From Caballeronia ptereochthonis (lineage in GTDB: Bacteria; Pseudomonadota; Gammaproteobacteria; Burkholderiales; Burkholderiaceae): 64,000 nucleotides of DNA. This document shows, piece after piece, positions 1,165 to 62,270 of this stretch. The stretch is from positions 124,001 through 188,000 of the forward strand of contig NZ_FCOB02000014.1 in the NCBI RefSeq assembly GCF_001545075.1, written 5' to 3'. The notes under the pieces were generated by a model, which had not been told where the DNA came from, ran no database searches, and saw only the letters and a list, made by a program, of their open reading frames with translations. The translations under genes were made by a program, and so were the position numbers. How positions within the stretch are numbered: position 1 is the first letter of the stretch; each line of letters begins with the position of its first letter.

Positions 1165-1400
1165 GCGCCACGCAAATCGCCCGACTCCGCGCGGCTTGCG
1201 CGAAGAAATCCGCGCTGCGGCCGGGCGCCGGCGAGTATATATCCTGCAAGCTTGCCGCCCGCGCTGTCAGCCCGATTTTCATTATTTGTCAGACGTTTAA
1301 AAGTAAACCGGGCCAGCATTCGCGTATCCTTTAGGGTTTTGCCGAGCGAAAATCCGTCAGGACGACGGGCGCTCGTCGCTTCGACCACCGATACTCCAGC

Positions 1401-2426: not shown

Positions 2427-2438
2427 GGGTCCGTGCTG

Positions 2439-4337
2439 ATGAATCGAATAAAAGCTTCGTGGCTATCGGCAGGCGCGTTCGTCTTCGATCTGGTCGCCGT
2501 CGTCGGCTCCTGGCTTGCCGCTTACGTCATTCGCTTCAACGGAACCGTGCCGCACGACTTCCGTGAGGGCGCGCTCGCCGCGCTCGTCTGGGTGTTGCCG
2601 GTGTATGCCGTCGTCTTCCGCATGTTCGGCCTCTATCGCGGCATGTGGGTGTTCGCGAGCCTGCCGGACCTCATGCGCATCTCCAAGTCCATCGCGGTGG
2701 GCGCGCTCGTCGTCATGGTGGGCGCGGTGATGTCGCAACCCACGCCCGTCATTCCGCGCTCGGTGCTGATCGTCTCGCCGCTTCTGCTGTTCCTCGCGAT
2801 GGGCGGCGCGCGCGCGCTCTATCGCGCGGGCAAGGAGTTCTATCTGTACGGCGGCCTCGTCGGCCAGGGCAAGCCCGTGATCGTGCTCGGCGCGGGCACG
2901 GCCGGCGCGATGCTCGCGCGCGAGCTGTCGCGTTCGAGCGAGTGGCGCCTCGTCGGCCTGCTCGACGACGATCCCGCCAAGCAGGGACGCGAAGTGCTCG
3001 GTCACAAGGTGCTCGGCCCGTTCGGCGACCTGCCGCGCTTCGCCGAGCAACTGAAAACCGACTACGTGATCATCGCGATTCCGTCAGCCTCGGTCGAGGA
3101 GCAGCGGCGCGTCGCCACGCTGTGCGTGCGCGCGGGCGTCAAGGTGATGGTGCTGCCCGCGCTCAGTCAACTGACGCAGGGCGAGGGCGGCTTCCTGTCG
3201 CGCGTGCGCCAGATCGACCTCGAAGACCTGCTCGGCCGCGAGCCGGTGAAGATCGACATGCCGCACGTCGAGCAACTGCTGCACGGGCGCGTCGTGATGG
3301 TGACCGGCGCGGGCGGCTCGATCGGCTCCGAGCTGTGCCGCCAGATCCTGCGTTTCTCACCCGCGCAGCTGATCGCCTACGATCTCAGCGAGTACGCGAT
3401 GTATCGCCTCATCGAGGAGCTGCACGAGAAGTTTCCGGAGTGCTCGGTGATTCCCGTTGTCGGCGACGCGAAGGATTCGCTCCTGCTCGACCAGACCATG
3501 GCGCGCTTCACGCCGCACATCGTCTTCCATGCGGCGGCCTACAAGCACGTCCCGCTGATGGAAGAGCAGAACGCCTGGCAGGCCGTGCGCAACAACGTGC
3601 TCGGCACGCTGCGCGTCGCGCGCGCGGCGATCCGCCACGACGTGCGCCACTTCGTGCTGATTTCCACCGACAAGGCCGTCAATCCGACCAATGTGATGGG
3701 CGCATCCAAGCGTCTCGCCGAGATGGCGTGCCAGGCGCTGCAGCAGGCTGCGCCGCGCACGCAGTTCGAGACCGTGCGCTTCGGCAACGTGCTCGGCAGC
3801 GCCGGCAGCGTGATTCCGAAGTTCCAGCAGCAGATCTCGAGGGGCGGCCCCGTCACGGTCACGCATCCGGAAATCACGCGCTTCTTCATGACGATTCCCG
3901 AGGCCGCGCAGCTCGTACTGCAGGCATCGAGCATGGGGCGCGGCGGCGAGATCTTCATTCTCGACATGGGCCAGCCGGTGAAGATCGTCGATCTCGCGCG
4001 CGACCTGATCCGTCTCTACGGCTACTCGGAGGAGCAGATCCGCATCGTGTTCACGGGTCTGCGACCGGGCGAGAAGCTCTACGAGGAACTGCTCGCCGAC
4101 GACGAAACCACCACCCGCACGCCGCATCCGAAGCTGCGTATCGCGCGGGCGCGCGGCGTGCCGGACAACTTCATCGACGAACTCCTGCCGTGGCTCATGC
4201 AGCATCGCGTGCTTTCCGACGATGAAGTGCGCCGCGACCTGCGCCGCTGGGTGCCGGAGTATCAGACGGCGACGCTGCCGGTGCTGCAGAGCGTGCAGGT
4301 TGCCAAGGCGGCAAACGAGCGCGGTGCGGTGGGCTGA
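2439..4337 (+). CDS. wbiI: Membrane nucleotide-sugar 4,6-dehydratase (WbpM/CapD family, WbiI-like)
   Basis: A 632-residue protein with four N-terminal transmembrane helices, a first nucleotide-binding domain (VIVLGAGTAGAML) and a second, catalytic SDR domain starting at VMVTGAGGSIGSELCRQIL. The active-site region TDKAVNPTNVMGASKR has methionine (Met420) where other SDRs have tyrosine, followed by Lys424. This Ser-Met-Lys arrangement is typical of WbpM-like UDP-GlcNAc 4,6-dehydratases and is not a defect. It makes the 4-keto-6-deoxy intermediate that a partner such as WbiG reduces. An in-frame GTG at 2433 is possible, but ATG 2439 sits about 8 bp after GAGGGT, which is better spaced. It ends the O-antigen run proper. 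Confidence 0.92.
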   Translation: MNRIKASWLSAGAFVFDLVAVVGSWLAAYVIRFNGTVPHDFREGALAALVWVLPVYAVVFRMFGLYRGMWVFASLPDLMRISKSIAVGALVVMVGAVMSQPTPVIPRSVLIVSPLLLFLAMGGARALYRAGKEFYLYGGLVGQGKPVIVLGAGTAGAMLARELSRSSEWRLVGLLDDDPAKQGREVLGHKVLGPFGDLPRFAEQLKTDYVIIAIPSASVEEQRRVATLCVRAGVKVMVLPALSQLTQGEGGFLSRVRQIDLEDLLGREPVKIDMPHVEQLLHGRVVMVTGAGGSIGSELCRQILRFSPAQLIAYDLSEYAMYRLIEELHEKFPECSVIPVVGDAKDSLLLDQTMARFTPHIVFHAAAYKHVPLMEEQNAWQAVRNNVLGTLRVARAAIRHDVRHFVLISTDKAVNPTNVMGASKRLAEMACQALQQAAPRTQFETVRFGNVLGSAGSVIPKFQQQISRGGPVTVTHPEITRFFMTIPEAAQLVLQASSMGRGGEIFILDMGQPVKIVDLARDLIRLYGYSEEQIRIVFTGLRPGEKLYEELLADDETTTRTPHPKLRIARARGVPDNFIDELLPWLMQHRVLSDDEVRRDLRRWVPEYQTATLPVLQSVQVAKAANERGAVG

Positions 4338-4354
4338 GCGCGTCGAGGGCACGC

Positions 4355-5404
4355 ATGACGACGCTCGATGAAGTCCATGCGCTGACCCACGCGGGCTCGC
4401 TGTTGTCGCGAAACGGCGAGATCGTTGCGCCGTACGATCTGGAAGTCGCGCCCGGCGATGCATCCGGCTTTTCACCTTTGGGCCGTGGCATTCTCAATGC
4501 GGGCCGCGAGCCGTTCGAAGCGGACTATGCGGGCGCGCGCCGCGTTCATCTCGTCAATGCCTTCGGGGTCACGCTCGGCGATTCGATCATCGGCTTGTCC
4601 GCGCTCTTTGCCGTGAAGCGCCGCCATCCGCATCTTGCCTTCACCGTCTATCGCCCGGCGCGCGCGCCGTACTACGTGAAGCGTCTCTATGAACTGGCCG
4701 CGCCGCTGTTCGGCGCGATCGTCGATTTGCCGGTGCCGCTCGCGAGCCTTCCGGACGATGAACTCAAGATCGACATCGGCAATCAGCTGTTCTGGACGCG
4801 CTTCGCGTCCATGCCGATGATCGATTTCTTTCTGTGGGCGCTGGGCGTCGCGCCGGAAAGCGTCGCCGCCGCCGACAAGCGCAATCGCTGGCTCGCGGAC
4901 GTGCCCCTGCCTGCGCCGGCGAGCGAGCCGTACGCGTTGTTCTGTCCGGACGCGAGCACGCCGGTGCGCAGCATTCCCGCGTCCGTGAGAGCGCGCATCG
5001 TCGCGCGGCTCGCGGATGAAACCGGCTTCGCCGTTTATGGCTTCGGCGCGGTCGATCATCCGCGCTATCGCGATATCGCGCCGCTTTCCGCCGACACGAC
5101 GGACTTCCTCGCGTGGATCCGACACGCGCGCTATCTGGTGACGGCGGACACGGCGGCCCTGCACGCCGCGGCCGGCTTCGACGTGCCGACGACCGCGTTC
5201 TTCACGACGATCCCCGCGCACATGCGCGCGCGCGATTACGCGAACTGCATCGCGGTCGAACTGGGCTTGCCGCATTTGCGCGGCATTCATGCGAGCGCGC
5301 GGGCGGCGGATCTGGACGCGCTGGAACGCGTGTATCGCGAATACGACTGGCGTGCGATGCCGCTCGCGCGCGGCGCGTCGGAAGCGGCGTCGGGCCTCGT
5401 GTGA
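4355..5404 (+). CDS. GT9-like glycosyltransferase (heptosyltransferase-related)
   Basis: A 349-residue protein beginning 17 bp after the WbiI-like gene, so probably cotranscribed. The N-terminal half has FGVTLGDSIIGLSALFAVKR, resembling the 'GDxxxxxPxLxAL+' start of GT9 enzymes. The C-terminal half has YLVTADTAALHAAAGFDVP, which matches the 'D(T/S)gxxHlAaAxxxP' donor site of heptosyltransferases. The segment before the first motif (about 60 residues) is longer than in WaaC or WaaF. Function is inferred as transfer of a sugar onto an O-antigen or core acceptor at the cytoplasmic face of the membrane. It could also be a degenerate GT9 member without activity. The next gene converges, with only 4 bp between the two stop codons. 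Confidence 0.7.
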   Translation: MTTLDEVHALTHAGSLLSRNGEIVAPYDLEVAPGDASGFSPLGRGILNAGREPFEADYAGARRVHLVNAFGVTLGDSIIGLSALFAVKRRHPHLAFTVYRPARAPYYVKRLYELAAPLFGAIVDLPVPLASLPDDELKIDIGNQLFWTRFASMPMIDFFLWALGVAPESVAAADKRNRWLADVPLPAPASEPYALFCPDASTPVRSIPASVRARIVARLADETGFAVYGFGAVDHPRYRDIAPLSADTTDFLAWIRHARYLVTADTAALHAAAGFDVPTTAFFTTIPAHMRARDYANCIAVELGLPHLRGIHASARAADLDALERVYREYDWRAMPLARGASEAASGLV

Positions 5405-5408
5405 GCGC

Positions 5409-6332
5409 TCAGCCCGTCTTGCCGTCGACCTGGAAAGACGGCAGCCGGTTGTAAAGCTCCGCGACCCAGTCGATGAACACGCGCACGCGGCGCGGCTGAT
5501 GGCGATTGGCCGCATACAGCACCGACACCACGCGCGGATACGACGGATACTCCTGCAGCACTTGCTTGAGCGCGCCGCTTTTCACGAGCGGATCGAGCGT
5601 GTAGCTGGAGCTCTGGATCAGGCCGAGTCCCGAGACGCCGGCGGCGATATACGAATCGCCGTCGTTGACCGCGATCTTGTGCTTCATCGCGATGATGCGC
5701 GTTTCGCCATCGACGACGAATTCCCAGTTGCGCACGCGCCCCGAGTTGTTCAGCACGTAGCCGACGGCGAGATGCTGGTCGAGCTCGTCGAGGGTCTTCG
5801 GCTCGCCGTGCTTTTCGATGTATTCGGGCGATGCGCACGTGATCTGCGTGTACGCGCCGATGCGCTTCGCCACGAGCCCGACATCGCCGACCGCGCCCAC
5901 GCGCACGACGCAATCGACCGCTTCCTCGACGAGATCCACTTGCCGGTCGGTGAGCAGCAGCTCGACGCCGATGTCCGGGTAGGCAGTGAAGAATTCGGGC
6001 AGCGCGGGAATGATCGTGTTCTTCGCCATCACCTGGGGCAGGCTGACTTTCACGTTGCCCTTGGGACTCAGTTTCGAATGCGACAGCGATGCTTCCATGT
6101 CGTCCACTTCGCCCAGCACGCGCACGCAGCGCTCGTAATAGGCTTCGCCGTCCTCGGTGATGCTGATGCTGCGCGTCGTGCGGTTGATGAGGCGCGCGCC
6201 CAGATGCGCCTCGAGCGCCTGCAGCGTGCGTGACACGCTGGCGGGAGGCAGGCGCAGGGCGTCGGCGGCCTTGGAGAAACTGCCCGCCTCGACGACCCGC
6301 GCGAATACTTTCATTGCAAGGAAGCGATCCAT
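5409..6332 (-). CDS. LysR-family transcriptional regulator
   Basis: A 307-residue LysR-type regulator. The winged helix-turn-helix is at the N-terminus, with SFSKAADALRLPPASVSRTL at about residues 18-37, followed by LEAHLGARLINRTTRSISIT. The substrate-binding domain begins near SPKGNVKVSLPQVMAK and contains VDCVVRVGAVGDVGLVAKRIG, placing it in the CrgA-like group common in Burkholderia. It lies convergent with the O-antigen run and tandem with a PAP2 gene whose stop is about 150 bp upstream of its start. No inducer or target can be named from sequence, and there is no divergently transcribed neighbour, so the usual rule for guessing a LysR target does not help. Confidence 0.9.
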   Translation of the reverse strand: MDRFLAMKVFARVVEAGSFSKAADALRLPPASVSRTLQALEAHLGARLINRTTRSISITEDGEAYYERCVRVLGEVDDMEASLSHSKLSPKGNVKVSLPQVMAKNTIIPALPEFFTAYPDIGVELLLTDRQVDLVEEAVDCVVRVGAVGDVGLVAKRIGAYTQITCASPEYIEKHGEPKTLDELDQHLAVGYVLNNSGRVRNWEFVVDGETRIIAMKHKIAVNDGDSYIAAGVSGLGLIQSSSYTLDPLVKSGALKQVLQEYPSYPRVVSVLYAANRHQPRRVRVFIDWVAELYNRLPSFQVDGKTG

Positions 6333-6484
6333 GCTCGGGGTCCGGAAACGTGATCGCGCGCGAGCGAATGCGCGCGTGAAGGGTGAGCCTGCCTTTTCAA
6401 GCGACGATCATACTTAAGATCGCCCGCGCACGCGCCGCGAGTGAACACGGCGCCGCGCGGAAACGGGAGGGGTCACCCGGCGTC

Positions 6485-7072
6485 TCAGAGCCCGAGTCCC
6501 TGGCAGAGCCACCAGGAGTAGTGTTCGATCATCCGCTGGAACGGCGCGTGATGGCCGTAGGCGATCGACGACACGGCAAGCAGCCCCGCGCCCGCGACCA
6601 GCGCGCGCGGCATCTTGCGCGGCTTGTCGAAGACGCGCAGCAGAAGCAGGGCGGCGATGACCGCGCCGAGCAGCCAGCCGGCGACGACTTCGGCGGGCGT
6701 ATGCGCGTCCTGCATGATGCGGCTCGCGCCGATCGCCGCCGCCAGCGCGAGGCCGCCCACCGCGCCCAAGCGGTACCAGCCGCCGCCGAAGCCGCCGAAG
6801 AGGAGTCCGCCGGCCACCGTATAGATCGACGCGGCGAGCATCGTGTGACCGCTGATCATGCGCAGTTGAATGGCGGAGAATTCGATGCCGCAGCCGGCGT
6901 AGAGAATCTTCGAGAGCCCGACGAGCCCCATGCCCGCCGCGAGCAGCACGGCCCAGCGCACGGCGAGGCGCATGTCGACCGAACGCAGCCAGAGCGCGCA
7001 GCCGAGCGCGAGCGGCAGCAGGAGCGCCGCGTCGCCGAGATTCGAAAGAGTCCAGAGTACCTTTGTTTCCAT
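6485..7072 (-). CDS. PAP2-family phosphatase, membrane protein
   Basis: A 195-residue protein with five or six hydrophobic helices and a split phosphatase signature: ISGHTMLAA (the PSGH-like part, with Ile for Pro) and SRIMQDAHTPAE. The first KxxxxxxRP motif of classical type-2 phosphatidic acid phosphatases is not evident, and the last motif has Glu where many members have Asp. Likely action is at the periplasmic face on a lipid phosphate or undecaprenyl pyrophosphate, which would suit a surface-glycan region, but this is inference. ATG 7072 was chosen because the protein becomes hydrophobic and family-like from METKVLWTLS; the longer reading frame upstream is arginine-rich and runs antisense to the end of the adjacent regulator. 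Confidence 0.75.
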   Translation of the reverse strand: METKVLWTLSNLGDAALLLPLALGCALWLRSVDMRLAVRWAVLLAAGMGLVGLSKILYAGCGIEFSAIQLRMISGHTMLAASIYTVAGGLLFGGFGGGWYRLGAVGGLALAAAIGASRIMQDAHTPAEVVAGWLLGAVIAALLLLRVFDKPRKMPRALVAGAGLLAVSSIAYGHHAPFQRMIEHYSWWLCQGLGL

Positions 7073-7115
7073 ACGTATCCGTTGTAGGTAACCTCGCGGG
7101 CGCTGACGAACCCGC

Positions 7116-8186
7116 TTACGAGCCGTCGTCCTGCCTGCGGCGGCCCGCCATCCGGTATTCGGTCGGCGAGATCGACAGCCGTTTGCGAAAGATCTTCGCG
7201 AGGCCATCGCCGCTGCCCGCGCCGCAGCGCCGCGCGATCTTGTCCACCGGCAGATCGGTCGATGCGAGCAGCATGCAGCTCGCATCGAGCCTCGCGCGCA
7301 ACAAATATTCCGACGGCGTGAGCCCGATCTGCGCCTTGAAGCGGCGCAGGAAATTGCGTTCGCTCATCGCCGCGACCCGCGCCGCATCCGTGATCGAGAT
7401 CGGCCGCACATAGTTTTCGCGGATCCAGCGCGCGGCCGCATCGATCTTCTGGCGCACGCCGCCGCTATCGGTGTCGTCGAGCACGGTGGCGAGCTTCTGC
7501 CACGCGCCCGGAATCGAGCGCTCCGACACTTCGCGCGCGATTGCCGCGCCGTGATCGCGCTTGATGATCGACAGCGCCGCCGCGATCGGACCCTTCGGGT
7601 CGTCGAGCGTGAGTGTCTGCTCGGCGATGAAGCGCGGGTTCGATATGCCGGGCAAGAACGCCGGCGAGAGCACGGGCGCCGCCGGTTCCTCGGCAAAATC
7701 GAGCGAGCGGTTCTGTAGCGTCAGGTTGGCCGCGGCGAGGATGTGCGCGCCTTCGCCGATCGCCTTGATGAACGGAATCTTCGGCGCCACGCGCCCGAGC
7801 CGCTTTCTCAGCAACGCATCGTGACGTGCGCGCCGCGCGCCTTCGCCGCCGGCGATGAACAGCGCGTCGCACTCGTTCATCCAGCGCGTTTCGAGGCTTT
7901 CGGTCCAGATGCGCATCGAGCAGCTGCTCGCCACGCTGCCACCTTCACTCGACAAAAACAGCAGCGAATAGTTCGGCGTGCACCAGCGCTCGCCGGCGTC
8001 CGCGGGCACGCGAACCTGATTGGCGAGCGAGAAGACCTCGGAGATCGAACTGACCTCGACGAGCGAAAAGTCCTCGAAGATCAGAATGCCGATCCGCTTT
8101 GCCGTACTGGCCATGTCGGCGGGCGGCGTGTCGGGCGCGACTCCTCGCACGACCTGAAGCCTGCCCATCCCATTGGCATATACCAT
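7116..8186 (-). CDS. GlxA-type AraC-family transcriptional regulator (EPS-flanking copy 1)
   Basis: A 356-residue regulator with an N-terminal DJ-1/PfpI-like (GATase1) domain beginning at KRIGILIFEDFSLVEVSSI. A C-terminal AraC DNA-binding domain carries two helix-turn-helices, MSERNFLRRFKAQIGLTPSEY and LPVDKIARRCGAG. The start at 8186 is preceded by GGGAGA at a 5-bp spacing, and the N-terminus MVYAN matches MPYAN in the paralogous regulator at 13672-14673, which supports both starts. It is divergent from galU across a 324-bp gap. The position at one edge of the EPS locus suggests control of that locus. The ligand is unknown. Confidence 0.88.
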   Translation of the reverse strand: MVYANGMGRLQVVRGVAPDTPPADMASTAKRIGILIFEDFSLVEVSSISEVFSLANQVRVPADAGERWCTPNYSLLFLSSEGGSVASSCSMRIWTESLETRWMNECDALFIAGGEGARRARHDALLRKRLGRVAPKIPFIKAIGEGAHILAAANLTLQNRSLDFAEEPAAPVLSPAFLPGISNPRFIAEQTLTLDDPKGPIAAALSIIKRDHGAAIAREVSERSIPGAWQKLATVLDDTDSGGVRQKIDAAARWIRENYVRPISITDAARVAAMSERNFLRRFKAQIGLTPSEYLLRARLDASCMLLASTDLPVDKIARRCGAGSGDGLAKIFRKRLSISPTEYRMAGRRRQDDGS

Positions 8187-52113: not shown

Positions 52114-53489
52114 GCGGCGCGGCTTCCCCGAGCGCATCGGCCGCGGTGCTGAGGCGCGTCTACCGGGCGCTCTGGTGGATCGTCGCGCCGCTCGCGGTGC
52201 TGCGGCTCTACATCCGCTCGCGCAAGGAGCGCGGCTATCGCGAGCATATCGGCGAGCGCTTCGGGCGCGTTCCGCCGCGCCGCGCCGACGATTCCGCGCC
52301 GCTCATCTGGGTGCACGCGGTATCGGTCGGCGAGACGCGCGCCGCGGAGCCGCTGATCGCCGCGCTGATGAAGGCGCATCCCGAAGCGCGCATCCTGCTT
52401 ACGCACATGACGCCGAGCGGACGCGCGACGGGCGTCGAACTGTTCGGCGACCGCGTCTTGCGCAGCTATCTTCCCTACGACCTGCCGATTCTCGTGCGGC
52501 GTTTCCTGCGCGCGTGGCGGCCGTCGCTCGGCATCGTGATGGAGACCGAAGTCTGGCCGACGCTCATCGACGAATGCAAGCGCGCCGACGTGCCGCTCGT
52601 CCTGACCAACGCGCGCATGTCGGAGCGCTCGTACCGGCGCGCGGCCCGCTTCGGGCGTGCGGTGCGCGAAGTGTTCGGCGGCTTTTCGCGCGTGCTCGCG
52701 CAGACGCCGTCCGACGCCGAGCGGCTCACCGCGCTCGGTGCGCGCAACGTCGCGGTGCTCGGCAACCTGAAGTTCGACATGGGCGCGCCGCCCGAACTCG
52801 TGGCGCGCGGTCAGGCATGGCGCGCGGCGATCGGCGACCGGCCGGCATGGGTCGCCGCGAGCACGCGCGAGGGCGAGGAGACGCTGGTGCTGCGCGCGTT
52901 CGCTGCGCTGAACGTGCCCAATGCGCTGTTGATCCTCGTGCCGCGCCATCCGCAGCGTTTCGATGAAGTGTCGGCGCTCATCGCGAGCGCCGGCATGACG
53001 AGCGCACGCCGCTCGGTCTGGGCGCCGAAGCCCGTCGCGGCGGGCTCGGGTGCGGACGTGCCGGAGCCCTTGCCGTCGAGCGTGCAGGTCCTGCTCGGCG
53101 ATTCGATGGGCGAACTCGGCGCGTATTACGCGGCGGCGGATCTGGCGTTCATCGGCGGGAGCCTGTTGCCGCTCGGCGGGCAGAATCTGATCGAAGCGTG
53201 CGCGGCGGGCGTGCCGGTGCTGATCGGGCCGCACACCTTCAACTTCACGCAGGCGACCAACGATGCGATCGCCGCCGGCGCCGCGCTGCGCGTGCAGGAC
53301 CCGCCGGATCTCGCGCGCGGCCTGCGGGAAATCTTCAACGACAAGGCGCGACGTCTCGCGATGAGCGCGGCGGCCTCGGCGTTCGCGGCGCGTCATCGGG
53401 GCGCGACCGAGCGCACGGTGAGCGTGCTGAGCGCGCTGCTGGAAGAGGGCGAAACGGCGAAGCACGCCTCCGCCGCCTTGCCCGAGTAG
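52110..53489 (+). CDS. waaA: Kdo transferase
   Basis: A 459-residue GT30 enzyme that adds Kdo to lipid IVA. It has the membrane anchor YRALWWIVAPLAVLRLYIRS, then IGERFGRVP, IWVHAVSVGETRAAEPLIAA, GIVMETEVWPTLIDECK and LTNARMSERSYRR. The C-terminal domain has AASTREGEETLVLRA, DLAFIGGSLLPLGGQNLIEA and GPHTFNFTQATNDAI. The likely start is TTG 52110, overlapping the kdoO stop as TTGA, with AGGGCAGGG upstream. GTG 52146 (giving a first residue before LRRVYRALWW) is the alternative and fits the usual N-terminus more closely. The next gene converges 4 bp away. Confidence 0.94.
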   Translation: MSGAASPSASAAVLRRVYRALWWIVAPLAVLRLYIRSRKERGYREHIGERFGRVPPRRADDSAPLIWVHAVSVGETRAAEPLIAALMKAHPEARILLTHMTPSGRATGVELFGDRVLRSYLPYDLPILVRRFLRAWRPSLGIVMETEVWPTLIDECKRADVPLVLTNARMSERSYRRAARFGRAVREVFGGFSRVLAQTPSDAERLTALGARNVAVLGNLKFDMGAPPELVARGQAWRAAIGDRPAWVAASTREGEETLVLRAFAALNVPNALLILVPRHPQRFDEVSALIASAGMTSARRSVWAPKPVAAGSGADVPEPLPSSVQVLLGDSMGELGAYYAAADLAFIGGSLLPLGGQNLIEACAAGVPVLIGPHTFNFTQATNDAIAAGAALRVQDPPDLARGLREIFNDKARRLAMSAAASAFAARHRGATERTVSVLSALLEEGETAKHASAALPE

Positions 53490-53493
53490 CCGG

Positions 53494-54768
53494 CTAGGGG
53501 TTTTCGACCGCGAGCAGCGCCGCCGCGCAGCGCGCGAAGCGTTCGTTGCTCGCGGCGATGCCGTACTCCTGCGCGCGCTCGAGCGCGCGTTCCTTCATGC
53601 GCGTTCTGAGCGATTCGTCGGTGAGCACGCGGCGCAGCGCATCGGCGAGTTGCTCGACCGAGCCCACCGGAAACAGGATGCCGAAGCGGCCGTCGCCGAG
53701 AATCTCGCGCGGGCCGGTCGGGCAGTCGCTCGCGACGACGGGCTTGCCGAGCGCGAGCGCTTCGAGCAGCACCATCGGCATGCCTTCATAGCGCGAACTG
53801 AGCACTTGCAGCCGCGCGCCCGCCACGAGCGCGTGCGGATTGTTGCGATAACCCGTGAAATGCACGCGCTCCGCAATGCCGAAATCCTTCGCGAGCGCTT
53901 CGAGTTCGCCACGAAACGCGCCGTCGCCGACGATCACGAGATGCTCCTCGATCTCCGCGCCGCGCACGAGGTCGGCATACGCGCGCAAGAGCGTGCGATG
54001 GTCCTTCTGAATCTCGTCGAGCCGCGCGACCGAAATGATGTACGGCGCGTCGCAGGGCGGTGCTTCCTTCGCCGCGCCGTTGTCGCGGATGCGCTCGATG
54101 TCGATCGCATTGGGCAGCACGAAGAGGCGCTTGAGCGCGCCGCCGAACATTTTGCGCGCTTCCTCGGCCATGTGCTCGTTGAGCGCCGCGACGCCGTCGT
54201 AGCGCGCGAACTGCGCGGAGAGACGCCGCTTCTTGCGGTTGCGATTGGCGAGGCGCGCATCGAAGCTGAAGTGGTTCACGCCGAGCCACGCGGTGCCGAA
54301 GCGGCCCGCGAGGCGGCGCAGCGACATGTCGTAATCGACGATCAGCGCGTGCTTGCGCGCCAGCTCGGCGACGCGGCGCTTCACATAGGGACGCACCGCG
54401 AGCGTGTTGAAGACGTCGCGCCCGACGCGGCCGAGCTTGCTCAGGCGACGCGCGTAGCGGCGCGACTGAAAGTAATTGAGCCAGGGCTTGTCGGCGAGGA
54501 TCTCGATGCCGACGTCCTGCGGAACGAGCGCGCGAAAGCGGTCATGGAACGCGGGGGACGGATGCATGACCGAGAGCGTGACGACGAAGCGCTCGCGGTC
54601 GAACACGCGCAGCCACTGGATCAGCGACGATTCGATGCCCCCATCGCCGAAATCGACGATGTGAAAGAGGACGGGGATGCGCTCTCGGGCGGGTTCACGC
54701 GGCTGCGACACGGCGGAGCTGTTGCGCGGTCCGCTCGGGTTCGGCCGGGTGGAGAAGGCAGTGGGCAC
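53494..54768 (-). CDS. GT4 glycosyltransferase (probable LPS core)
   Basis: A 424-residue GT-B enzyme. After a Pro/Arg-rich leader comes VLFHIVDFGDGGIESSLIQW (acceptor domain), then DYDMSLRRLAGRFGTAWLGV and VLPNAIDIERIRDNG. The donor domain has YIISVARLDEIQKDHRTLLR, VGDGAFRGELEALAKDFGI and LSSRYEGMPMVLLEALALGK with the EGMPMVLLE donor motif. Next to waaA and waaC it is most likely an LPS core transferase; donor unknown. The first 30 residues are not conserved in style, so the start could lie further in. Convergent with waaA. Confidence 0.85.
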   Translation of the reverse strand: MPTAFSTRPNPSGPRNSSAVSQPREPARERIPVLFHIVDFGDGGIESSLIQWLRVFDRERFVVTLSVMHPSPAFHDRFRALVPQDVGIEILADKPWLNYFQSRRYARRLSKLGRVGRDVFNTLAVRPYVKRRVAELARKHALIVDYDMSLRRLAGRFGTAWLGVNHFSFDARLANRNRKKRRLSAQFARYDGVAALNEHMAEEARKMFGGALKRLFVLPNAIDIERIRDNGAAKEAPPCDAPYIISVARLDEIQKDHRTLLRAYADLVRGAEIEEHLVIVGDGAFRGELEALAKDFGIAERVHFTGYRNNPHALVAGARLQVLSSRYEGMPMVLLEALALGKPVVASDCPTGPREILGDGRFGILFPVGSVEQLADALRRVLTDESLRTRMKERALERAQEYGIAASNERFARCAAALLAVENP

Positions 54769-55065
54769 GGTGAGGCGTGGACGGAATTTTCCAAAGACGC
54801 AATGCTACCGCAGGTTGGCGGGCGCGGCCGGAAGCGCGTCGCGCATTCCGGGCGTTCGGCACGGTCGCGCGAGCCTGTCGTCGGAAGAATGACCGCCCAT
54901 GCGCCAGGTACGCATGCGTTGGGACGCGTCGCCACCGATCGCGCCCCGTGCTTTCCTTTCTTGCCGGCAACTGCTTCGATCGCCTATATATTGATTGGCC
55001 GAGCACGTCCTCTCGCACGGCACGAACGCGAGCACGACCCGGATAACTCTGATATGGGGTGCGAC
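54769..55065. other. 297-bp region between core transferase and the membrane-protein gene
   Basis: Divergent spacer with no supported gene. An AT-richer patch CTATATATTG near 54981-54990 may belong to a promoter for the downstream pair. It marks the left edge of a segment with less GC-biased codons. Confidence 0.35.
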
Positions 55066-55446
55066 ATGCAGCACAAAGAGGTGCTCTGGTTTGCAGGCGG
55101 CGAGCTGGCGATCATGTTGATCATGTCACTGATGATTCTCTCTCTGCGCAAGGCGCCCGTCGTGGACCGCTCACACGACACGCGATTGCTCTATTTTGCC
55201 GCCGTCATCCTCACGGCGCTGGGCCTGATCTTCATGTTCAGCATGGCGATGTATTTCTGGGAAGGGGCGTCCGAAAACCAGACGCCGGGTCCCGGTCAGG
55301 ACATATTCCGGCAATGCTCGCAGGTAATCCCGCCCATCGTCACCCTGGTGCTCGGCTATTTTTTTGGACGTCAGGAGTCCAGCGAACACAAGAGGAGAGC
55401 CGATGGAGGCGGCGGCCCGCCTCAGGCCGGACCGGAATCCGACTAA
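55066..55446 (+). CDS. Small three-helix membrane protein, partner of the hydrolase-WD40 gene
   Basis: A 126-residue protein I do not recognise. It has three hydrophobic stretches: GGELAIMLIMSLMILSLR, LYFAAVILTALGLIFMFSMA and IPPIVTLVLGYFFG. A loop ENQTPGPGQDIFRQCSQ lies between the last two, and the charged tail is ESSEHKRRADGGGG. The tail suggests a cytoplasmic C-terminus. ATG 55066 follows GGGG by six bases; ATG 55054 would add four residues. It is on the same strand and 100 bp before the 1002-residue hydrolase-WD40 gene, with a hairpin between, so it is probably coexpressed with it. It could anchor or regulate that protein at the inner membrane. Confidence 0.7.
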   Translation: MQHKEVLWFAGGELAIMLIMSLMILSLRKAPVVDRSHDTRLLYFAAVILTALGLIFMFSMAMYFWEGASENQTPGPGQDIFRQCSQVIPPIVTLVLGYFFGRQESSEHKRRADGGGGPPQAGPESD

Positions 55447-55464
55447 GGCTTTCATTCTGATTCC

Positions 55465-55497
55465 GCGTGCCCGGGCTGCTCTGCTTGCCCGGGACGC
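55465..55497. repeat. GC-rich hairpin between the membrane-protein gene and the hydrolase-WD40 gene
   Basis: An 11-bp stem with one bulged G (GCGT-CCCGGGC at 55465-55476 pairing with 55487-55497) and a ten-base loop. No T-run follows, so it may reduce readthrough or stabilise the mRNA rather than terminate. Confidence 0.5.
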
Positions 55498-55546
55498 TCG
55501 AATTCGCGCCTGCCCGAAGCAAAGCGCCTTCGACCCGAGGTGAGGA

Positions 55547-58500
55547 ATGTACGATCCGCACAGCGCTCATCGCGTCATTCTGACCGTGCATGGCATCCGA
55601 ACCTACGGGAAGTGGTCCGACAGACTGAGGATGCTCATTCATGCGCGCGATCCTCGGTTGCCCGTCGAGAACTATTCGTACGGGTTCTTTTCGACGTTCG
55701 CGCTGTTGCTGCCGCCGTTCAGATGGTTTGCGGTATGGCGCTTCGCGAAAGAGCTTCGTAGCCTGGCCGGCCGATATCGTCATGCCCAGTTCGACATCGT
55801 TGCTCATAGTTTCGGGACCTTCATCGTAGGCAAGACGCTCAAGCGGACCGCTTCAGCGGATTTGCCGCGAATCGGCACGGTGATCTTTGCCGGGAGCGTG
55901 CTCAGGCAGACGTTTCCGTGGCGAAAGATCTTCGAGAAGAAGGCGGTGAAACGCGTCGTCAACGAGTGCGGCGTGGACGATCACGTTCTCATCATCAGCC
56001 AGCTCTTTGTCCTTTTCACGGGCATGGCCGGGCGTGTCGGCTTTCACGGGTTTCAGGGCAACACCCTGCGCAATCGATATTTCAGCGGCGGGCACAGCCT
56101 TTACTTCACCGACGAGTTCATGTCGGAGCGATGGATACCATTGCTGGTGGACGAGGCGGCTGCGTCCCCCGTCGACGAGCGAAGAGAACTTTCGGCCTTG
56201 TCGGCAGCGGCGATGTGGCTCGTTCAGAATTTCGAGCCCTTGAAGATCGCGTTATACATCGGCGCTCCATGCTGGCTGATGATCTGGCAAGTCGATACGT
56301 GGAACAAGGCCTATGCCCAGGAAGTCGCCACGCGCGCGGCGGCGCTCGTCGGTCCGGCGAAGGCGTCGACACTCGACGGGCTTGCCCTGGCGATCGAATC
56401 CGTCGCAACGAAGCCGACGAAGCTGGGCCTGGAGACGCTGGAACGCGCGACCGCCATGCTGCCCGACGAAGCCTATAGCGTCCGCTTGCAGGCGAACAGG
56501 ACGTCATCCGGGGCGGCGCACGCCACCGACTATGACGCATCCCAGGGCATCGGTCCGATATTGATCGGGGCTCGTGGCAACACGGGTCTGGTGGGAACCG
56601 ACAAGGGCGCAATCGTCGCGTTCGACACGAAGAACTGGAGCGTCCTCAGGGCCATCTCGCTCGGAGACGATCCGATCGACGTGATCGCTCTCGATGACAG
56701 CGGCCAACATGCGTTCGCGTCGGATCAGGAGGGCGCGATCGCGCTCTGGAATCCGGCGAATCAGAGCGCCCCCGTCCGCATCGCGGGGCGGGGTCGTATT
56801 TTCGCGGCTGGATTCTCCGGTGACGGAAAATCGCTCTGTCTGCTTTCCGAGCCTGAAGAAGGCGGCGCGGAGATGCGTGAGCTGGACGCCGTGTCCGGCG
56901 TGCAGCGAAGCGCGACGGCGCTGGAGCCCGCGCGCGTCACGGCAGCCGCAGTGAGTCCGGATGGCACACTGGCCGCGACGGCCACCAATCGCGCGTCCGA
57001 GCTGACCGACGACGTCATGACGCCGCCCAACGCGATCCGCTTGTGGAACACCCGAAACGGAAAGCTGATTCACTCCTTCATTTCGAGCGGAGAAGTCACC
57101 TCCGTCTCGCTGAGCCCTGACAATCTGTTTCTGGCCGCGGGCGATGTCTTCGGGGTCACGCAGGTGTGGTCCCTCAACGACCCGTCTCCGATCTTCCAGT
57201 CCAGGCAAGCCGTGCCGATCGCCTTCGTTCAGTTCAGCCGGTTCGACAGTCCGATGACCATGCCCGCCGAGCTCTCGATCAAGGACTGGATGGAGGATCA
57301 AACCATCGAGACGGCGCTCGAAAGAGGCATCGCATTATATCCGCAGATCATGCTGGCGTCCGCGGGAAAGGATGGAACGGTCTCGATCATCAATCTGGTG
57401 ACGAGAAAGGAGACGGGTCTGGTCTTGCAACGCGAACATGTCAGAAGCGTCTCTTTCTCGAAAGGCGACGATCTGCTCTTCATCGGGAACGGCAGCGGCA
57501 TCAACGCATGGAGGACGTCTGCGTTTGCCAATGCCGAAGTGGTGCTGAACAGTCCCATCGAAGCCATCTCGATCGGTCCGCAGTCGAACACCATTCTCGC
57601 CCTGGGATCGAACGCGCTCTATCGCGCCTGGAATCGAAACACCGGTCGTCAGGTGGTCCAGGAAACCCTGTATCAACCCGGCTGGCGAAACGCGCCGGAG
57701 CTCGAAAACAGCGCGATTGCCGTGACGCCGAAGGCCATTACATTTCTCGGCAGCCTGGCCAGCATCGCTCCGGCAATGGTGAGCCGGTGGGATGGAGTGA
57801 CCGGCACTCCACTCCCGCCCGTGCGCGTCGCTGCGCTGGTCACGCGTGTGACCGTCTCGCAGGACGGGCAGCGCATGGCGGTCGCCTCCGATGACGGACT
57901 GATTCATCTCTACCCGGTTCTGCCGGACCCGGACGACCCGCCGGTCACCGTTTCCACGACGTCCAGCCCGACCGCCATGTCCCTCTCCGAAGATGCGCGC
58001 TGGTTGATCGCCGGAAATGCCTCGGGACGAGTGGATGTCTGGGATACGGCGACGCTTGCCCACCGCGCCTTTCAAGGCCAGGGCAAGATCGTGGAGGTGG
58101 CGGCCAGTGTCGAAAGCGGCCGCTTCGTCTTTGCGGACGAACAAGGGCGCGTGGTATCGATCGACGCAAGCTCCGGCGAAGCTTCCACCATCGTGGCGGA
58201 CAACGTGCCGGTCGGCTCGCTCGCGTTCTGGGGAAAAAACCTGCTCGCCGTTTCCAAGAAGACCCTGAAAGTATTTGATCTGTCCTCGCGTGGCGTGCTC
58301 GCGGAACGCGAAGTCGAAGGGCCGGTCAGGAACGTCGTGTTCGGCCATGACGGCTACGATATTTACTACACCGTTGGCAACAAGGTCCAGCAATGGCGCT
58401 GGGACCGCCAGGCCCTTCTGCGTGTCGCCTGCGTGCGCGCAGGAAGATCGCTCGACAACGATTTTCGCGAGCGCTTCGGGCTGCGCTCGCATGCGGAGAA

Positions 58501-58555
58501 CTGGTTGCTTCTCGCCCTCACCGGCAACCGTTTGAAGGGCTGTGAAAGTTCCTGA
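55547..58555 (+). CDS. Alpha/beta hydrolase - TM - WD40 repeat protein, STAND-like without NTPase
   Basis: A 1002-residue protein. Residues 1-200 form an alpha/beta hydrolase: RVILTVHGIRTYGKWSDRL (oxyanion loop), nucleophile elbow FDIVAHSFGTFIVG (Ser88), possible acid Asp144/145 (CGVDDHVLI) and His183 (SGGHSLYF). A membrane helix follows at about 233-249 (LYIGAPCWLMIWQ). The linker AYAQEVATRAAALVG and then LAIESVATKPTKLGL is like the one before propellers in STAND/WD40 proteins. From about 335 to 940 come degenerate WD40 repeats (ALWNPANQ, IRLWNTRNGKLIHSF, VDVWDTATLAHRAF), enough for two seven-bladed propellers. The end LLRVACVRAGRSLDNDF resembles the ACxxAGRxL cap of such proteins. No P-loop is present. 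AGA/AGG codons are frequent. Function unknown; a sensor-linked lipase or esterase is inferred. Confidence 0.82.
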   Translation: MYDPHSAHRVILTVHGIRTYGKWSDRLRMLIHARDPRLPVENYSYGFFSTFALLLPPFRWFAVWRFAKELRSLAGRYRHAQFDIVAHSFGTFIVGKTLKRTASADLPRIGTVIFAGSVLRQTFPWRKIFEKKAVKRVVNECGVDDHVLIISQLFVLFTGMAGRVGFHGFQGNTLRNRYFSGGHSLYFTDEFMSERWIPLLVDEAAASPVDERRELSALSAAAMWLVQNFEPLKIALYIGAPCWLMIWQVDTWNKAYAQEVATRAAALVGPAKASTLDGLALAIESVATKPTKLGLETLERATAMLPDEAYSVRLQANRTSSGAAHATDYDASQGIGPILIGARGNTGLVGTDKGAIVAFDTKNWSVLRAISLGDDPIDVIALDDSGQHAFASDQEGAIALWNPANQSAPVRIAGRGRIFAAGFSGDGKSLCLLSEPEEGGAEMRELDAVSGVQRSATALEPARVTAAAVSPDGTLAATATNRASELTDDVMTPPNAIRLWNTRNGKLIHSFISSGEVTSVSLSPDNLFLAAGDVFGVTQVWSLNDPSPIFQSRQAVPIAFVQFSRFDSPMTMPAELSIKDWMEDQTIETALERGIALYPQIMLASAGKDGTVSIINLVTRKETGLVLQREHVRSVSFSKGDDLLFIGNGSGINAWRTSAFANAEVVLNSPIEAISIGPQSNTILALGSNALYRAWNRNTGRQVVQETLYQPGWRNAPELENSAIAVTPKAITFLGSLASIAPAMVSRWDGVTGTPLPPVRVAALVTRVTVSQDGQRMAVASDDGLIHLYPVLPDPDDPPVTVSTTSSPTAMSLSEDARWLIAGNASGRVDVWDTATLAHRAFQGQGKIVEVAASVESGRFVFADEQGRVVSIDASSGEASTIVADNVPVGSLAFWGKNLLAVSKKTLKVFDLSSRGVLAEREVEGPVRNVVFGHDGYDIYYTVGNKVQQWRWDRQALLRVACVRAGRSLDNDFRERFGLRSHAENWLLLALTGNRLKGCESS

Positions 58556-58609
58556 GAGCGTTCCTTCGACGCTTCGTTGCCGGATGTCACGACACCCGAA
58601 CGGCGCGCG

Positions 58610-59260
58610 TCAGACCGCCAGCAAGCCCTTCTTCTCGATGAACGAAATCACCTGATCCAGCCCCTCCAGCGCTTTCAGATTGCACATCACGAACGGCCGC
58701 TCGCCGCGCATCTTCTTCGCGTCGCTCGCCATGACATCGAGATTCGCGCCGACGTATGGCGCGAGGTCCGTCTTGTTGATCACGAGCAGGTCCGACTTCG
58801 TGATGCCGGGTCCGCCCTTGCGCGGAATCTTTTCGCCGCCCGCGACATCGATCACGTAGATCGTCAGATCGGACAGCTCCGGGCTGAACGTGGCCGCGAG
58901 GTTATCGCCGCCCGATTCGATGAACACGATGTCCGCGTCCGGAAACTTCGACACCATGCGATCGACGGCTTCGAGATTGATCGACGCATCTTCGCGGATC
59001 GCCGTATGCGGGCAGCCGCCCGTCTCGACGCCCATGATGCGCTCGGCGGGCAGCGCGCCCGCAACGGTCAGGAGCCGCTGATCTTCCTTCGTGTAGATGT
59101 CATTGGTGATGGCGACGAGATCGTACTTCTCGCGCATCGCCTTGCAGAGCATTTCGAGCAGCGTGGTCTTGCCGGAGCCGACCGGCCCACCCACGCCGAC
59201 GCGCAAAGGCGGCAGTTTCTTGGTTCGGCGAGCGGCGGCGGAATAAGCGGGAGCGTTCAT
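58610..59260 (-). CDS. ureG: Urease accessory GTPase
   Basis: A 216-residue SIMIBI GTPase that drives nickel delivery to apo-urease. The P-loop is [20 protein letters not shown]. The metal-binding [15 protein letters not shown] (Cys-Pro-His) and the base motif [16 protein letters not shown] are present. It is last in the leftward run ureA-B-C-E-F-G, 30 bp after ureF. The protein works with UreF and UreD/UreH; the latter is not encoded here. Confidence 0.96.
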
Positions 59261-59290
59261 GCGATTGTCGATGCGAGATGCGGATTCGAG

Positions 59291-59971
59291 TTAAGAGCGA
59301 AAGAGCCGCGAATATTGCGACTCGTGACGCGCCGACAGAATGCCGAGCTGCGGCGCGAAGGTGTGGACGTGTTCGGGCGACGTATCGAGCGCGCGACGCA
59401 CGGCGGCATCGATCGGCTCGCGCAACGCGACGATGATGCGCTGTCCGGCGAGCTGACCGAGCGGCACGGCCTTGAGCGCGGCGGCCGCCTGATTCTCGAC
59501 CCAGCTGAATGCGTAGGCCGCGAGCGCCGCTTCAGGCGCGGCCTCGTGCGCGAACGCGGCGAAGGCGAAGGCCGTCGGCTGCGCGACGGGTTTGATCGTG
59601 GCGAGCGTCGCGCGGCGTGCCTCGTCGCCCCATTCGAGCGATGCGCAAAGCTGCGTGAGCGACCAGCCCATCTGCTCGGTTTCGCGCCTCAGCTCGGCGG
59701 ATTCACGGCTGGCGATGTATTCGTCATTGGCGGCTTTCAAAGCGGCTTCGTCGTGCGAACGCCAATGCTCCATCTGATGCGCGAGCAAGGGCAATTCGCC
59801 GCGCGCGAGCACGTTCATCAGGCCGCTTGAGATCCAGTCGCGCGCGCTGTCGCCGTCGTGAATCAGGCCGTGCTCAATCGCGGCTTCCAGGCCTTGCGAA
59901 TAGCTGAACGCGCCGATCGGCAGCGCCGGCGACGCGAGATGCAGGAGCGCCGTGAGCTCAGCGATGCGCAT
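59291..59971 (-). CDS. ureF: Urease accessory protein UreF
   Basis: A 226-residue all-helical accessory protein. It starts [20 protein letters not shown] and [17 protein letters not shown], the typical UreF opening, and ends with YSRLFRS. It acts as a GTPase-gating partner of UreG in the urease activation complex. ATG 59971 lies inside the end of ureE (14-bp overlap); the longer frame upstream is a shadow of the His-rich ureE tail and was left out. Confidence 0.94.
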
Positions 59972-60557
59972 GGCCGTGGTGATGATGACCGTGGTCATGA
60001 TCGTGACCGCATGACGAGTGATCGTGGTCATGCGAATGGTCATGACCATGATGCTCGTCGAAAACCTTCTGCGCGAGCGCATAGTCTTCGCTGAAGGTTT
60101 CGTCGTGACCGTGCCTGTGGCCGCCGCCATACGCGCCGGTCTCCGGCTGAAACGGCTGCGATTCGCGCGCGACGACAACGCCCAAGCGCTTCAGCATGTC
60201 TTCGAGCACCGGATCGGCCTCGAGCTTCAGGTAATCCGCGCCGACTTCGACCGGCGTATGGCGGTTGCCGAGGTGATACGCGGCGCGCGTGAGCATGCGC
60301 ACGCTCGGCGCGCGCACGATGAGCACATCTTCCTCTGCCGCGACGACGCGCACGAAGCCGCCATCATCCGCGACGAGCATGTCGCCGTCCGCGAGCACGG
60401 TGCCGCGCGGCATCACGAGGGCGACTTCCTCGCCGTTGTCGAGCGTGGCGGCCAGCCGGCTCTTGCAGCGCGCGTCGAAAGCGAGCGTGAGCGTGGGGGC
60501 GCGCTTGACGAGCACGGGTGCGAGTTTTGCGCTCAGACGTTTGTCGATGGTACGCAT
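59958..60557 (-). CDS. ureE: Urease accessory nickel chaperone UreE with His-rich tail
   Basis: A 199-residue UreE. It has [20 protein letters not shown] (N-terminal domain) and [13 protein letters not shown], with the interface His motif that binds nickel. The C-terminus is long and His/Asp-rich (about 25 His in the last 55 residues, e.g. [13 protein letters not shown] and [11 protein letters not shown]), longer than many UreE tails and likely a nickel store. Spacing to ureC is 6 bp. Overlap with ureF suggests coupled translation. Confidence 0.95.
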
Positions 60558-60563
60558 GAAGAT

Positions 60564-62270
60564 TCAGAACAGGAAATAGCGTTGCGCCATCGGCAGCACG
60601 GTGGCGGGATCGCAGGTGAGCAATTGCCCATCGGCGATCACCTGGTAGGTCTGCGGATCGACGCTGATGGATGGCTGCCATGCATTGTGAATCATGTCGG
60701 CCTTCGTCACATTGCGGCAGTTCTTCACCGCGACGACCTGCTTCTTCAACTCGTAGCGATCCGCGATGCGCGATTCCGCCGCCAGCTGCGACACGAACGT
60801 CAGCGACGTCTTGCCGAGCGCGCCGCCGCGCGTCGCGAACATCTCGCGGTAATGCACCGGCTGCGGCGTCGGAATCGACGCGTTCGGGTCGCCCATCTGC
60901 GCGACCGCGATCATGCCGCCCTTGACGATCAACGCGGGCTTCACCCCGAAGAACGCCGGCTCCCAGAACACGAGATCGGCCCACTTGCCCGGCTCGATCG
61001 AGCCGACCTCATGCGCGATGCCGTGCGTGATCGCGGGGTTGATCGTGTACTTCGCGACGTAACGCTTCGCGCGGAAGTTGTCGTTACGCGCGCCGTCTTC
61101 CGGCAATGCGCCGCGCTGCACCTTCATCTTGTGCGCCGTCTGCCAGGTGCGGATGATGACTTCGCCGACGCGGCCCATCGCCTGCGAATCGGACGAGAGC
61201 ATCGAGAGGGCGCCGAGATCGTGCAGGATGTCCTCGGCCGCGATGGTCTCGCGGCGAATGCGCGACTCCGCGAACGCAATGTCCTCCGCAATCGACGGAT
61301 CGAGGTGATGGCACACCATCAGCATGTCGAGATGTTCGTCGAGCGTGTTGACCGTGTAGGGGCGCGTCGGATTGGTGGAAGAGGGCAGCACGTTCGATTC
61401 GCCCGCCACCTTGATGATGTCCGGCGCATGCCCGCCGCCCGCGCCTTCGGTGTGATACGTGTGGATCGTGCGGCCCTTGAACGCGGCGATGGTGGTCTCG
61501 ACGAAGCCCGCTTCGTTCAGCGTATCCGTGTGGATGGCGACTTGCGTGTCGGTATCGTCGGCGACCGAGAGGCAGTTGTCGATCGCGGCGGGCGTCGTGC
61601 CCCAGTCCTCGTGCAGCTTGAGCCCGATCGCGCCGGCCTTCACCTGTTCGACGAGCGGCTCCGGCAGGCTCGCGTTGCCCTTGCCGAGAAAGCCCAGGTT
61701 GATCGGCCAGCCATCGGCGGCCTGCAGCATGCGCTCGATGTGCCACGGGCCCGGCGTGCAAGTGGTTGCGTTGGTGCCGGTCGCGGGGCCCGTGCCGCCG
61801 CCGAGCATCGTCGTCACGCCGCTTGCGAGCGCCTCGTCGATCTGCTGCGGGCTGATGAAGTGGATGTGCGTATCGACGCCGCCCGCCGTGACGATCATGC
61901 CTTCACCCGCGATCACTTCGGTCGCCGCGCCGATCGCAATCGTCACGTTCGGCTGGATGTCCGGATTGCCTGCCTTGCCGATCGCGAAGATGCGTCCGCT
62001 CTTGATGCCGATGTCGGCCTTCACGATGCCCCAGTGATCGAGGATCAGCGCGTTGGTCACGACGGTATCGACCACTTCGGCCGCGGGGCGTTGCGACTGG
62101 CCCATGCCGTCGCGAATCACCTTGCCGCCGCCGAATTTCACTTCTTCGCCGTAGGTGGTGAAGTCGCGCTCGACCTCGATGATGAGATCGGTGTCGGCGA
62201 GGCGCACGCGGTCGCCGGTGGTCGGGCCGAACATTTCCGCATAAGCGCGGCGGCCGATGCGTAGCGTCAT
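60564..62270 (-). CDS. ureC: Urease alpha subunit
   Basis: A 568-residue catalytic subunit splitting urea to ammonia and carbamate. Nickel ligands are seen as [12 protein letters not shown] (His135, His137) and the carbamylated lysine in [13 protein letters not shown] (Lys218, His220). The active-site flap is in [20 protein letters not shown]. All key residues and full length are present, so the enzyme should be active if UreD is supplied from elsewhere. It lies 16 bp after ureB. Confidence 0.98.

Follow-up and report, generated by a model that had tools for sequence, protein, structure and literature searches.

A hydrolase-WD40 fusion protein of Caballeronia ptereochthonis, a predicted sensor-effector from a patchy family of modular hydrolases

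Alpha/beta hydrolases, for the hydrolysis of membrane lipids, are counted among the effectors of bacterial conflict systems in the part of PMC8195603 available to us. Detocs is a family of three-gene defence systems, the best-described member of which has a PNP effector (accessible part of PMC11249213), the sole effector named in the accessible parts of the papers on it. It is composed of a histidine kinase protein together with a buffer protein and a response regulator (accessible part of PMC11728103). In a 64-kb stretch of the 7.7-Mb genome of the soil bacterium Caballeronia ptereochthonis (contig NZ_FCOB02000014.1, positions 124,001 to 188,000; hereafter the window), one gene encodes a 1002-residue protein in which a hydrolase domain, a probable membrane helix and WD40 propellers are joined in a single chain. 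A description of such a hydrolase-transmembrane-WD40 protein was not found in the literature, which is not proof that none is in print, and none is given in the accessible portions of PMC8195603, PMC3501461, PMC7159879, PMC10907252, PMC13092281 and PMC13236601. We give an even chance to the reading that this protein is a stand-alone sensor-effector, with a membrane-associated serine hydrolase as the effector, a WD40 propeller sensor and a role in conflict or abortive infection.

Order of parts and comparison with a STAND-WD40 protein

Both reading frames of the original prediction, of 1002 and 126 residues, were found where it had placed them (Table 1). The larger product had been described as a fusion of hydrolase, membrane helix and WD40 repeats, and these domains were borne out by Pfam, family profiles and a structural model. 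WD40 repeats (PF00400) scored 44 bits against a cut-off of 27 in the Pfam scan, which returned no match to a nucleoside triphosphatase (NTPase), in keeping with the predicted lack of such a domain. The NCBIfam scan gave zero matches, and no full-length scan, whether with Pfam, NCBIfam or PADLOC, matched the hydrolase part. A single-sequence fold with a predicted local distance difference test score (pLDDT) of 37 was discarded. The model from 34 sequences had a mean pLDDT of 76.6, with values of about 87-97 across residues 51-260, and a predicted template modelling score of 0.42, and the relative placement of its domains is therefore unreliable. This model contained the two propellers that structure prediction had been expected to find, the first of them closely matching a bacterial WD40 domain in the fold search. 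The protein thus carries WD40 propellers, and a cap resembling its own (ACRIARRNLTRDEW) was recognised by eye in locus L093 (L and G numbers are our handles for loci and genomes).

Table 1. Coordinates of the features in the window.
Feature	Position	Strand	Remarks
1002-residue hydrolase-transmembrane-WD40 protein	55547-58555	+	
Alpha/beta hydrolase domain, residues about 1-215	55547-56191	+	oxyanion loop H15-G16, nucleophile S88, acid D145, base H183 (predicted)
Probable membrane helix, residues about 231-249	56237-56293	+	weak, hydropathy 1.21; many relatives have a stronger helix here
Linker, residues about 250-362	56294-56632	+	first part helical, low model confidence from about 304 on
WD40 propeller 1, residues about 363-659	56633-57523	+	
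Propeller 2, residues about 660-953	57524-58405	+	Apaf-1 rows in fold search, overall root-mean-square deviation 12.3
C-terminal helical cap	58406-58552	+	ACVRAGRSL motif
Small membrane protein, 126 residues	55066-55446	+	two clear and one probable helix; 100 bp upstream of the 1002-residue gene
Segment absent at the matching site in the closest genus relative, G068	54682-58618		about 3.9 kb; about 180 bp in G068

A protein on a plasmid of Caballeronia sp. NK8 (L111), annotated as TIR, was matched by Pfam nSTAND1 and WD40 with a membrane helix between them, and ends in a short tail. In both this protein and the window protein a membrane helix is followed by a linker, a long WD40 part and a C-terminal tail (likeness of linker and tail judged by eye), in agreement with the STAND/WD40-like layout and linker originally proposed. 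The NK8 protein has TIR (an annotation, absent from the 25 of 45 Pfam families listed) and the nSTAND1 NTPase, whereas the window protein has a hydrolase and no NTPase match. Membership of the latter in the STAND/NLR class was rejected, since no NTPase was matched and the corresponding place is taken by a linker of about 110 residues, partly helical and partly of low confidence. In the NK8 locus (814-8021), 15 WD40 stretches that look much alike precede a DUF4231 gene, and an integrase gene lies two genes away.

The hydrolase domain and its family

By the order of its triad, its nucleophile elbow and its modelled strand order, the N-terminal domain is a member of the alpha/beta serine hydrolase superfamily. 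Ser88, Asp145 and His183 were invariant in 34 of 34 aligned rows and come after strands 81-87, 134-142 and 174-179 of the model, respectively, which is the usual pattern of this fold; of the two acids suggested originally (Asp144/145), Asp145 is the one so placed, and the HG oxyanion loop, nucleophile elbow and downstream His that had been called intact-looking were all recovered. The fold search list was filled by the propellers, and the hydrolase fold accordingly rests on sequence profiles and strand order. When the hydrolase part of the window protein was scanned by itself, the single Pfam match was to Abhydrolase_6 (E 0.0091, under the curated cut-off). Comparison with lipase and DUF676 families had been recommended, and among 15 family members scanned (E up to 0.01), Abhydrolase_6 was matched in 7, Hydrolase_4 in 4 and DUF676 in 3. 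The family profile also matched the lipase of PDB entry 2zyi over the nucleophile elbow (E 1.3e-4). This alpha/beta lipase shares the HSxGT elbow with the window hydrolase, the match spanning 53 profile positions, and has no propellers to our knowledge. The domain looks intact and lipase- or esterase-like, with catalysis predicted.

Relatives of this domain were found in 35 loci of named genomes, sorted by eye into forms with WD40 (10), a degenerate propeller-like part (5), a TPR-like part (5), an N-terminal REC domain (11), a C-terminal REC-like part (1), coiled and OmpA-like parts (2) and a protein kinase (1). Plasmids and one viral contig added REC, propeller-like and TPR-like forms and one DUF6932 form, and further genomes added two forms with a GAF-like part, along with tandem hydrolases that have C-terminal helices. 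Genes at these loci were called as longest open reading frames, neighbours of less than 120 residues being dropped, and it was largely by eye that proteins were labelled as REC, TPR-like, OmpA-like, GAF-like or degenerate-propeller forms. Pfam confirmed WD40 in L076, L079, L091 and L093, the kinase in L109 and REC in L098, where the hydrolase protein itself scores under the cut-off; at E 1e-4, Pfam matched neither L036 (TPR-like) nor L082 (REC-like). Judged from these sequences, the hydrolase is a modular effector, its partners being WD40, REC, kinase and DUF6932 domains according to profile matches, and TPR-like, GAF-like and OmpA-like parts by eye. In a quick tree of 48 domains (short search, many weak forks), 14 label changes were required against 29.7 in shuffles; the labels are therefore clustered though not single, and the starred branches require at least two changes for WD40.

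Proteins of Rhizobium, Ensifer, Mesorhizobium and Bradyrhizobium have the hydrolase-helix-propeller order of the window protein and hydrolases 32-48% identical to its own, but their propellers diverge strongly in sequence, and the Rhizobium copies have as neighbours a tandem hydrolase and a membrane protein that is patatin-like by eye. On two Rhizobium plasmids (L037, 5608-13475; L038, 5584-13432) the patatin-like, hydrolase-transmembrane-propeller and tandem hydrolase genes form a one-strand cluster near a lysozyme gene; the L038 cluster is also near a DUF2235 gene. Tandem alpha/beta hydrolases with C-terminal helices, the second domain being related to the window hydrolase, were seen in L027, L028, L029, L031, L032, L033, L037 (11775-13475) and L038 (11741-13432). 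Two copies in one genome (L025, 3442-4515; L026, 2399-3502) have a hydrolase followed by a part that is GAF-like by eye, Pfam leaving the first of them unmatched. On a Klebsiella pneumoniae plasmid (L041, 2934-11416), a DUF6932-hydrolase fusion is followed by two unknown genes, with an ATPase and UvrD-like helicase pair nearby that, going by annotation and recall, we take to be reminiscent of Gabija.

The REC forms link the domain to a candidate antiviral operon. A 395-residue protein of Caballeronia grimmiae R27 (NZ_JFHE01000085) shares 38% identity with the window protein over residues 10-244, and the gene set to which it belongs was matched in PADLOC by PDC-M60A (3.5e-54), PDC-M60B (7.1e-40) and PDC-M60C (1.8e-28, REC part only). 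All 14 REC-hydrolase genes examined (L096-L100, L102-L107, L110, L039 and L040) sit, as third gene, behind a DtcA-like and a DtcB-like gene, the queries having been the C. grimmiae, Enterobacter and Klebsiella sets, which are three of the 14; L097, L104, L107 and L110 have a DtcA-like frame that is short, cut or split. A homologous effector domain is thus the output part of kinase, REC and REC-effector operons of PDC-M60 type. PDC-M60 is presumably the same as Detocs (defensive two-component system), of which Rousset et al. are said to have listed, in 2023, a variant with a hydrolase.

The PDC-M60 hydrolase variant and the window protein have homologous effectors with the same invariant triad and, in most, a helix after the hydrolase. 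The window protein, however, lacks kinase, REC and operon, and its sensor, a WD40 double propeller, is part of the protein itself. Membership in Detocs/PDC-M60 was rejected, since neither of the two window proteins matches REC or PDC-M60 and no such genes adjoin them (by reading). Because the related domain is the output of a candidate antiviral operon, the window protein looks like a stand-alone relative of an antiviral device. Among 52 neighbouring genes of 11 REC loci, several defence-type matches (mad3, mad8, a restriction endonuclease, AriA, a BREX or Dpd helicase and PDC-S32) were found. On the contig classed as viral (L110, 1-4882), kinase-like, REC and REC-hydrolase genes form an operon, possibly a prophage-borne defence.

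Distribution, genomic slot and the small membrane gene

Residues 1-330 were searched in 58 genomes of the genus, and the full protein in 37 of them. The hydrolase-WD40 protein was present in 1 of 58, a related hydrolase in other architecture occurred in four other genus genomes, and no other genome of the 37 had the full protein. With the source genome counted each time, residues 1-330 were matched in 5 of 58 genus, 6 of 300 order and 6 of 398 phylum genomes, one match in the order and one in the phylum being weak and partial. The family is patchy.

On one flank of the finding are waaA and a glycosyltransferase gene, on the opposite flank ureG (names by reading). Matches to ureG were obtained in 57 of 58 genus genomes, 53 of them long (the source included) and four short and stray, and one genome had none; 30 loci were compared. 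In G068, the closest of the 29 other loci (94% identical), the stretches matching window positions 53350-54684 and 58619-60713 are separated by about 180 bases, and G023 has the same empty-site arrangement with about 200 bases. By hand counts, the end of waaA lies no more than 1500 bases from ureG in 21 of the 29 loci, 3 (L045, L062 and L069) have the glycosyltransferase in that place, and 5 have neither within reach. The place corresponding to window positions 53490-58620 is almost empty in some of these loci (L045-L073) and holds about 1 kb of other content in many. Because content differs among the 29 loci, the waaA-ureG slot is variable in the genus, as originally proposed. The less GC-biased codon use noted at the outset was also confirmed, third-position GC being 0.75-0.77 for the genes of the segment against 0.81-0.90 in seven neighbours, a difference that fits a recent arrival of the segment. 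Repeats were not recognised at the edges of the insert, nor was a target duplication, and the scan for promoters and terminators gave nothing exceeding shuffles.

The adjoining genes of lipopolysaccharide (LPS) type in this genome would suit a stable housekeeping esterase that acts in LPS or envelope metabolism alongside waaA and the glycosyltransferase. Such a role is hardly credible, since the closest relative lacks the segment, the full protein was found in no other genus genome at the coverage given above, and hydrolase relatives elsewhere adjoin unrelated genes; the candidate was rejected on the missing segment and the relatives elsewhere.

The original prediction joined the 1002-residue gene with a small three-helix membrane gene on the same strand as a two-gene unit. 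The small gene exists, with two of its helices clear and the third probable, whereas a survey for constant pairing did not uphold the unit: the 36 hydrolase loci L075-L110, some of which end near the hydrolase gene, held no relative of the small gene at E up to 1, and a conserved two-gene unit was therefore rejected. In the genus the small gene occurred in 1 of 58 genomes, with no relative in the 57 others. One weak relative was found among 299 other genomes of the order and another on a Nitrosospira plasmid (41% identity over 68 residues), neither accompanied by a hydrolase match, and a hydrolase is absent from the annotated neighbours of the plasmid copy. The small gene may have come in on the same segment and be a neighbour by chance. 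A lipase-like domain adjoining a small membrane gene also recalls an exported type VI lipase effector with its immunity protein, which is highly improbable here, because the domain is fused to REC in relatives and the small gene is not kept with them.

Side of the membrane and proposed role

The single membrane helix of the original prediction is likely, its place matching stronger helices of relatives, and weak in the window protein itself. A stretch with a hydropathy of at least 1.6 follows the hydrolase in 30 of 36 loci (counted by hand). In the per-row charge table several rows, the window's included, have a wrongly placed helix; among rows with more than 100 residues after the helix, counted by hand, the 6 of 29 so affected, the window's among them, were dropped, and of the remaining 23, lysine and arginine were more frequent on the C-terminal side in 17, equal in 4 and fewer in 2. 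These counts bear on a transmembrane receptor with a cytosolic hydrolase, a single spanning helix and periplasmic propellers. In its fuller form, the outward double propeller would respond to the cell surface or to an event at the envelope, such as the contact of an adsorbing phage, and switch on the cytosolic lipase through the helix with no nucleotide involved. The hydrolase should be cytosolic in the REC forms because REC domains are, the helix then being a C-terminal anchor; one relative has an OmpA match after the helix (E 0.0037, under the Pfam cut-off), L108 being similar by eye; and eight cysteines follow the helix in 7 of 8 degenerate-propeller rows, some TPR-like rows also having 7-8. 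The lysine and arginine excess argues for a cytosolic C-terminus, though acidic residues are likewise commoner on that side, and in L082 a REC-like part follows the helix (by eye). The REC forms and OmpA-like part favour propellers on the outside, the charge counts and the one REC-like tail propellers on the inside. The helix of the window protein is also weak, and we consider the outward receptor-lipase improbable both in outline and in its fuller form. If true, it would place sensing and output in one chain, as one member of a large effector family in which control by phosphorelay, propeller, TPR-like part or kinase is exchanged.

We return to the stand-alone sensor-effector, which in its NTPase-free form is the best reading of the protein. 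Because the layout of the NK8 protein is alike and hydrolases are among conflict-system effectors (accessible part of PMC8195603), we infer sensing by the propellers and output by the hydrolase. At rest, the propellers would restrain the hydrolase or hold it apart; once a trigger binds to them, the hydrolase would be released or clustered at the inner membrane, where it would cleave acyl esters, most likely those of phospholipids, so that cell growth would stop. Autoinhibition, the lipid substrate, the trigger and a phage or conflict role such as abortive infection are all inferred.

Several observations weigh against this reading. The WD40 forms are not one group in the tree, where the window protein is loosely placed, apart from other WD40 proteins, in a starred set whose 25 rows include REC, degenerate-propeller and OmpA-like forms. 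Its helix is weak and the predicted topology ambiguous. PADLOC matched the WD40 region alone, weakly (E 0.0081) and with a model of generic HEAT-ARM type, and among five other propeller, TPR-like or OmpA-like forms four were unmatched and one had the same generic match. No match to the hydrolase was obtained in phage records. It had been expected that homologues would lie near defence genes; at non-REC loci no defence islands were seen among the 25 of 64 PADLOC families listed for 107 neighbours of 23 loci (107 scanned of 110, three long ones left out), each of the 25 having matched one protein and 23 of them being DNA methyltransferase models. Pfam assigned neighbours at these loci to the housekeeping families SecA, ribosomal S2, EF-Ts and PdxJ. 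Defence matches at REC loci were more varied than among those listed families, the two scans being compared with each other and neither with random genes.

The ordinary genes around non-REC forms, together with window neighbours read as LPS and urease genes, lend some weight to an envelope or metabolic stress sensor-effector, in which the propellers would sense a host signal and the hydrolase would remodel lipids or another ester. The patchy presence of the hydrolase and the use of the same domain in PDC-M60-type operons count against this explanation, which we regard as possible but doubtful.

As judged from sequence and model, the window protein is a real, accessory sensor-effector of a patchy modular family, with an intact-looking hydrolase and a predicted function. 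The finding ties a hydrolase part that goes unmatched in full-length profile scans to the effector domain of PDC-M60-type operons and, if the effector role is true, the protein would provide an immune-type output with neither an NTPase switch nor a phosphorelay in the same chain.

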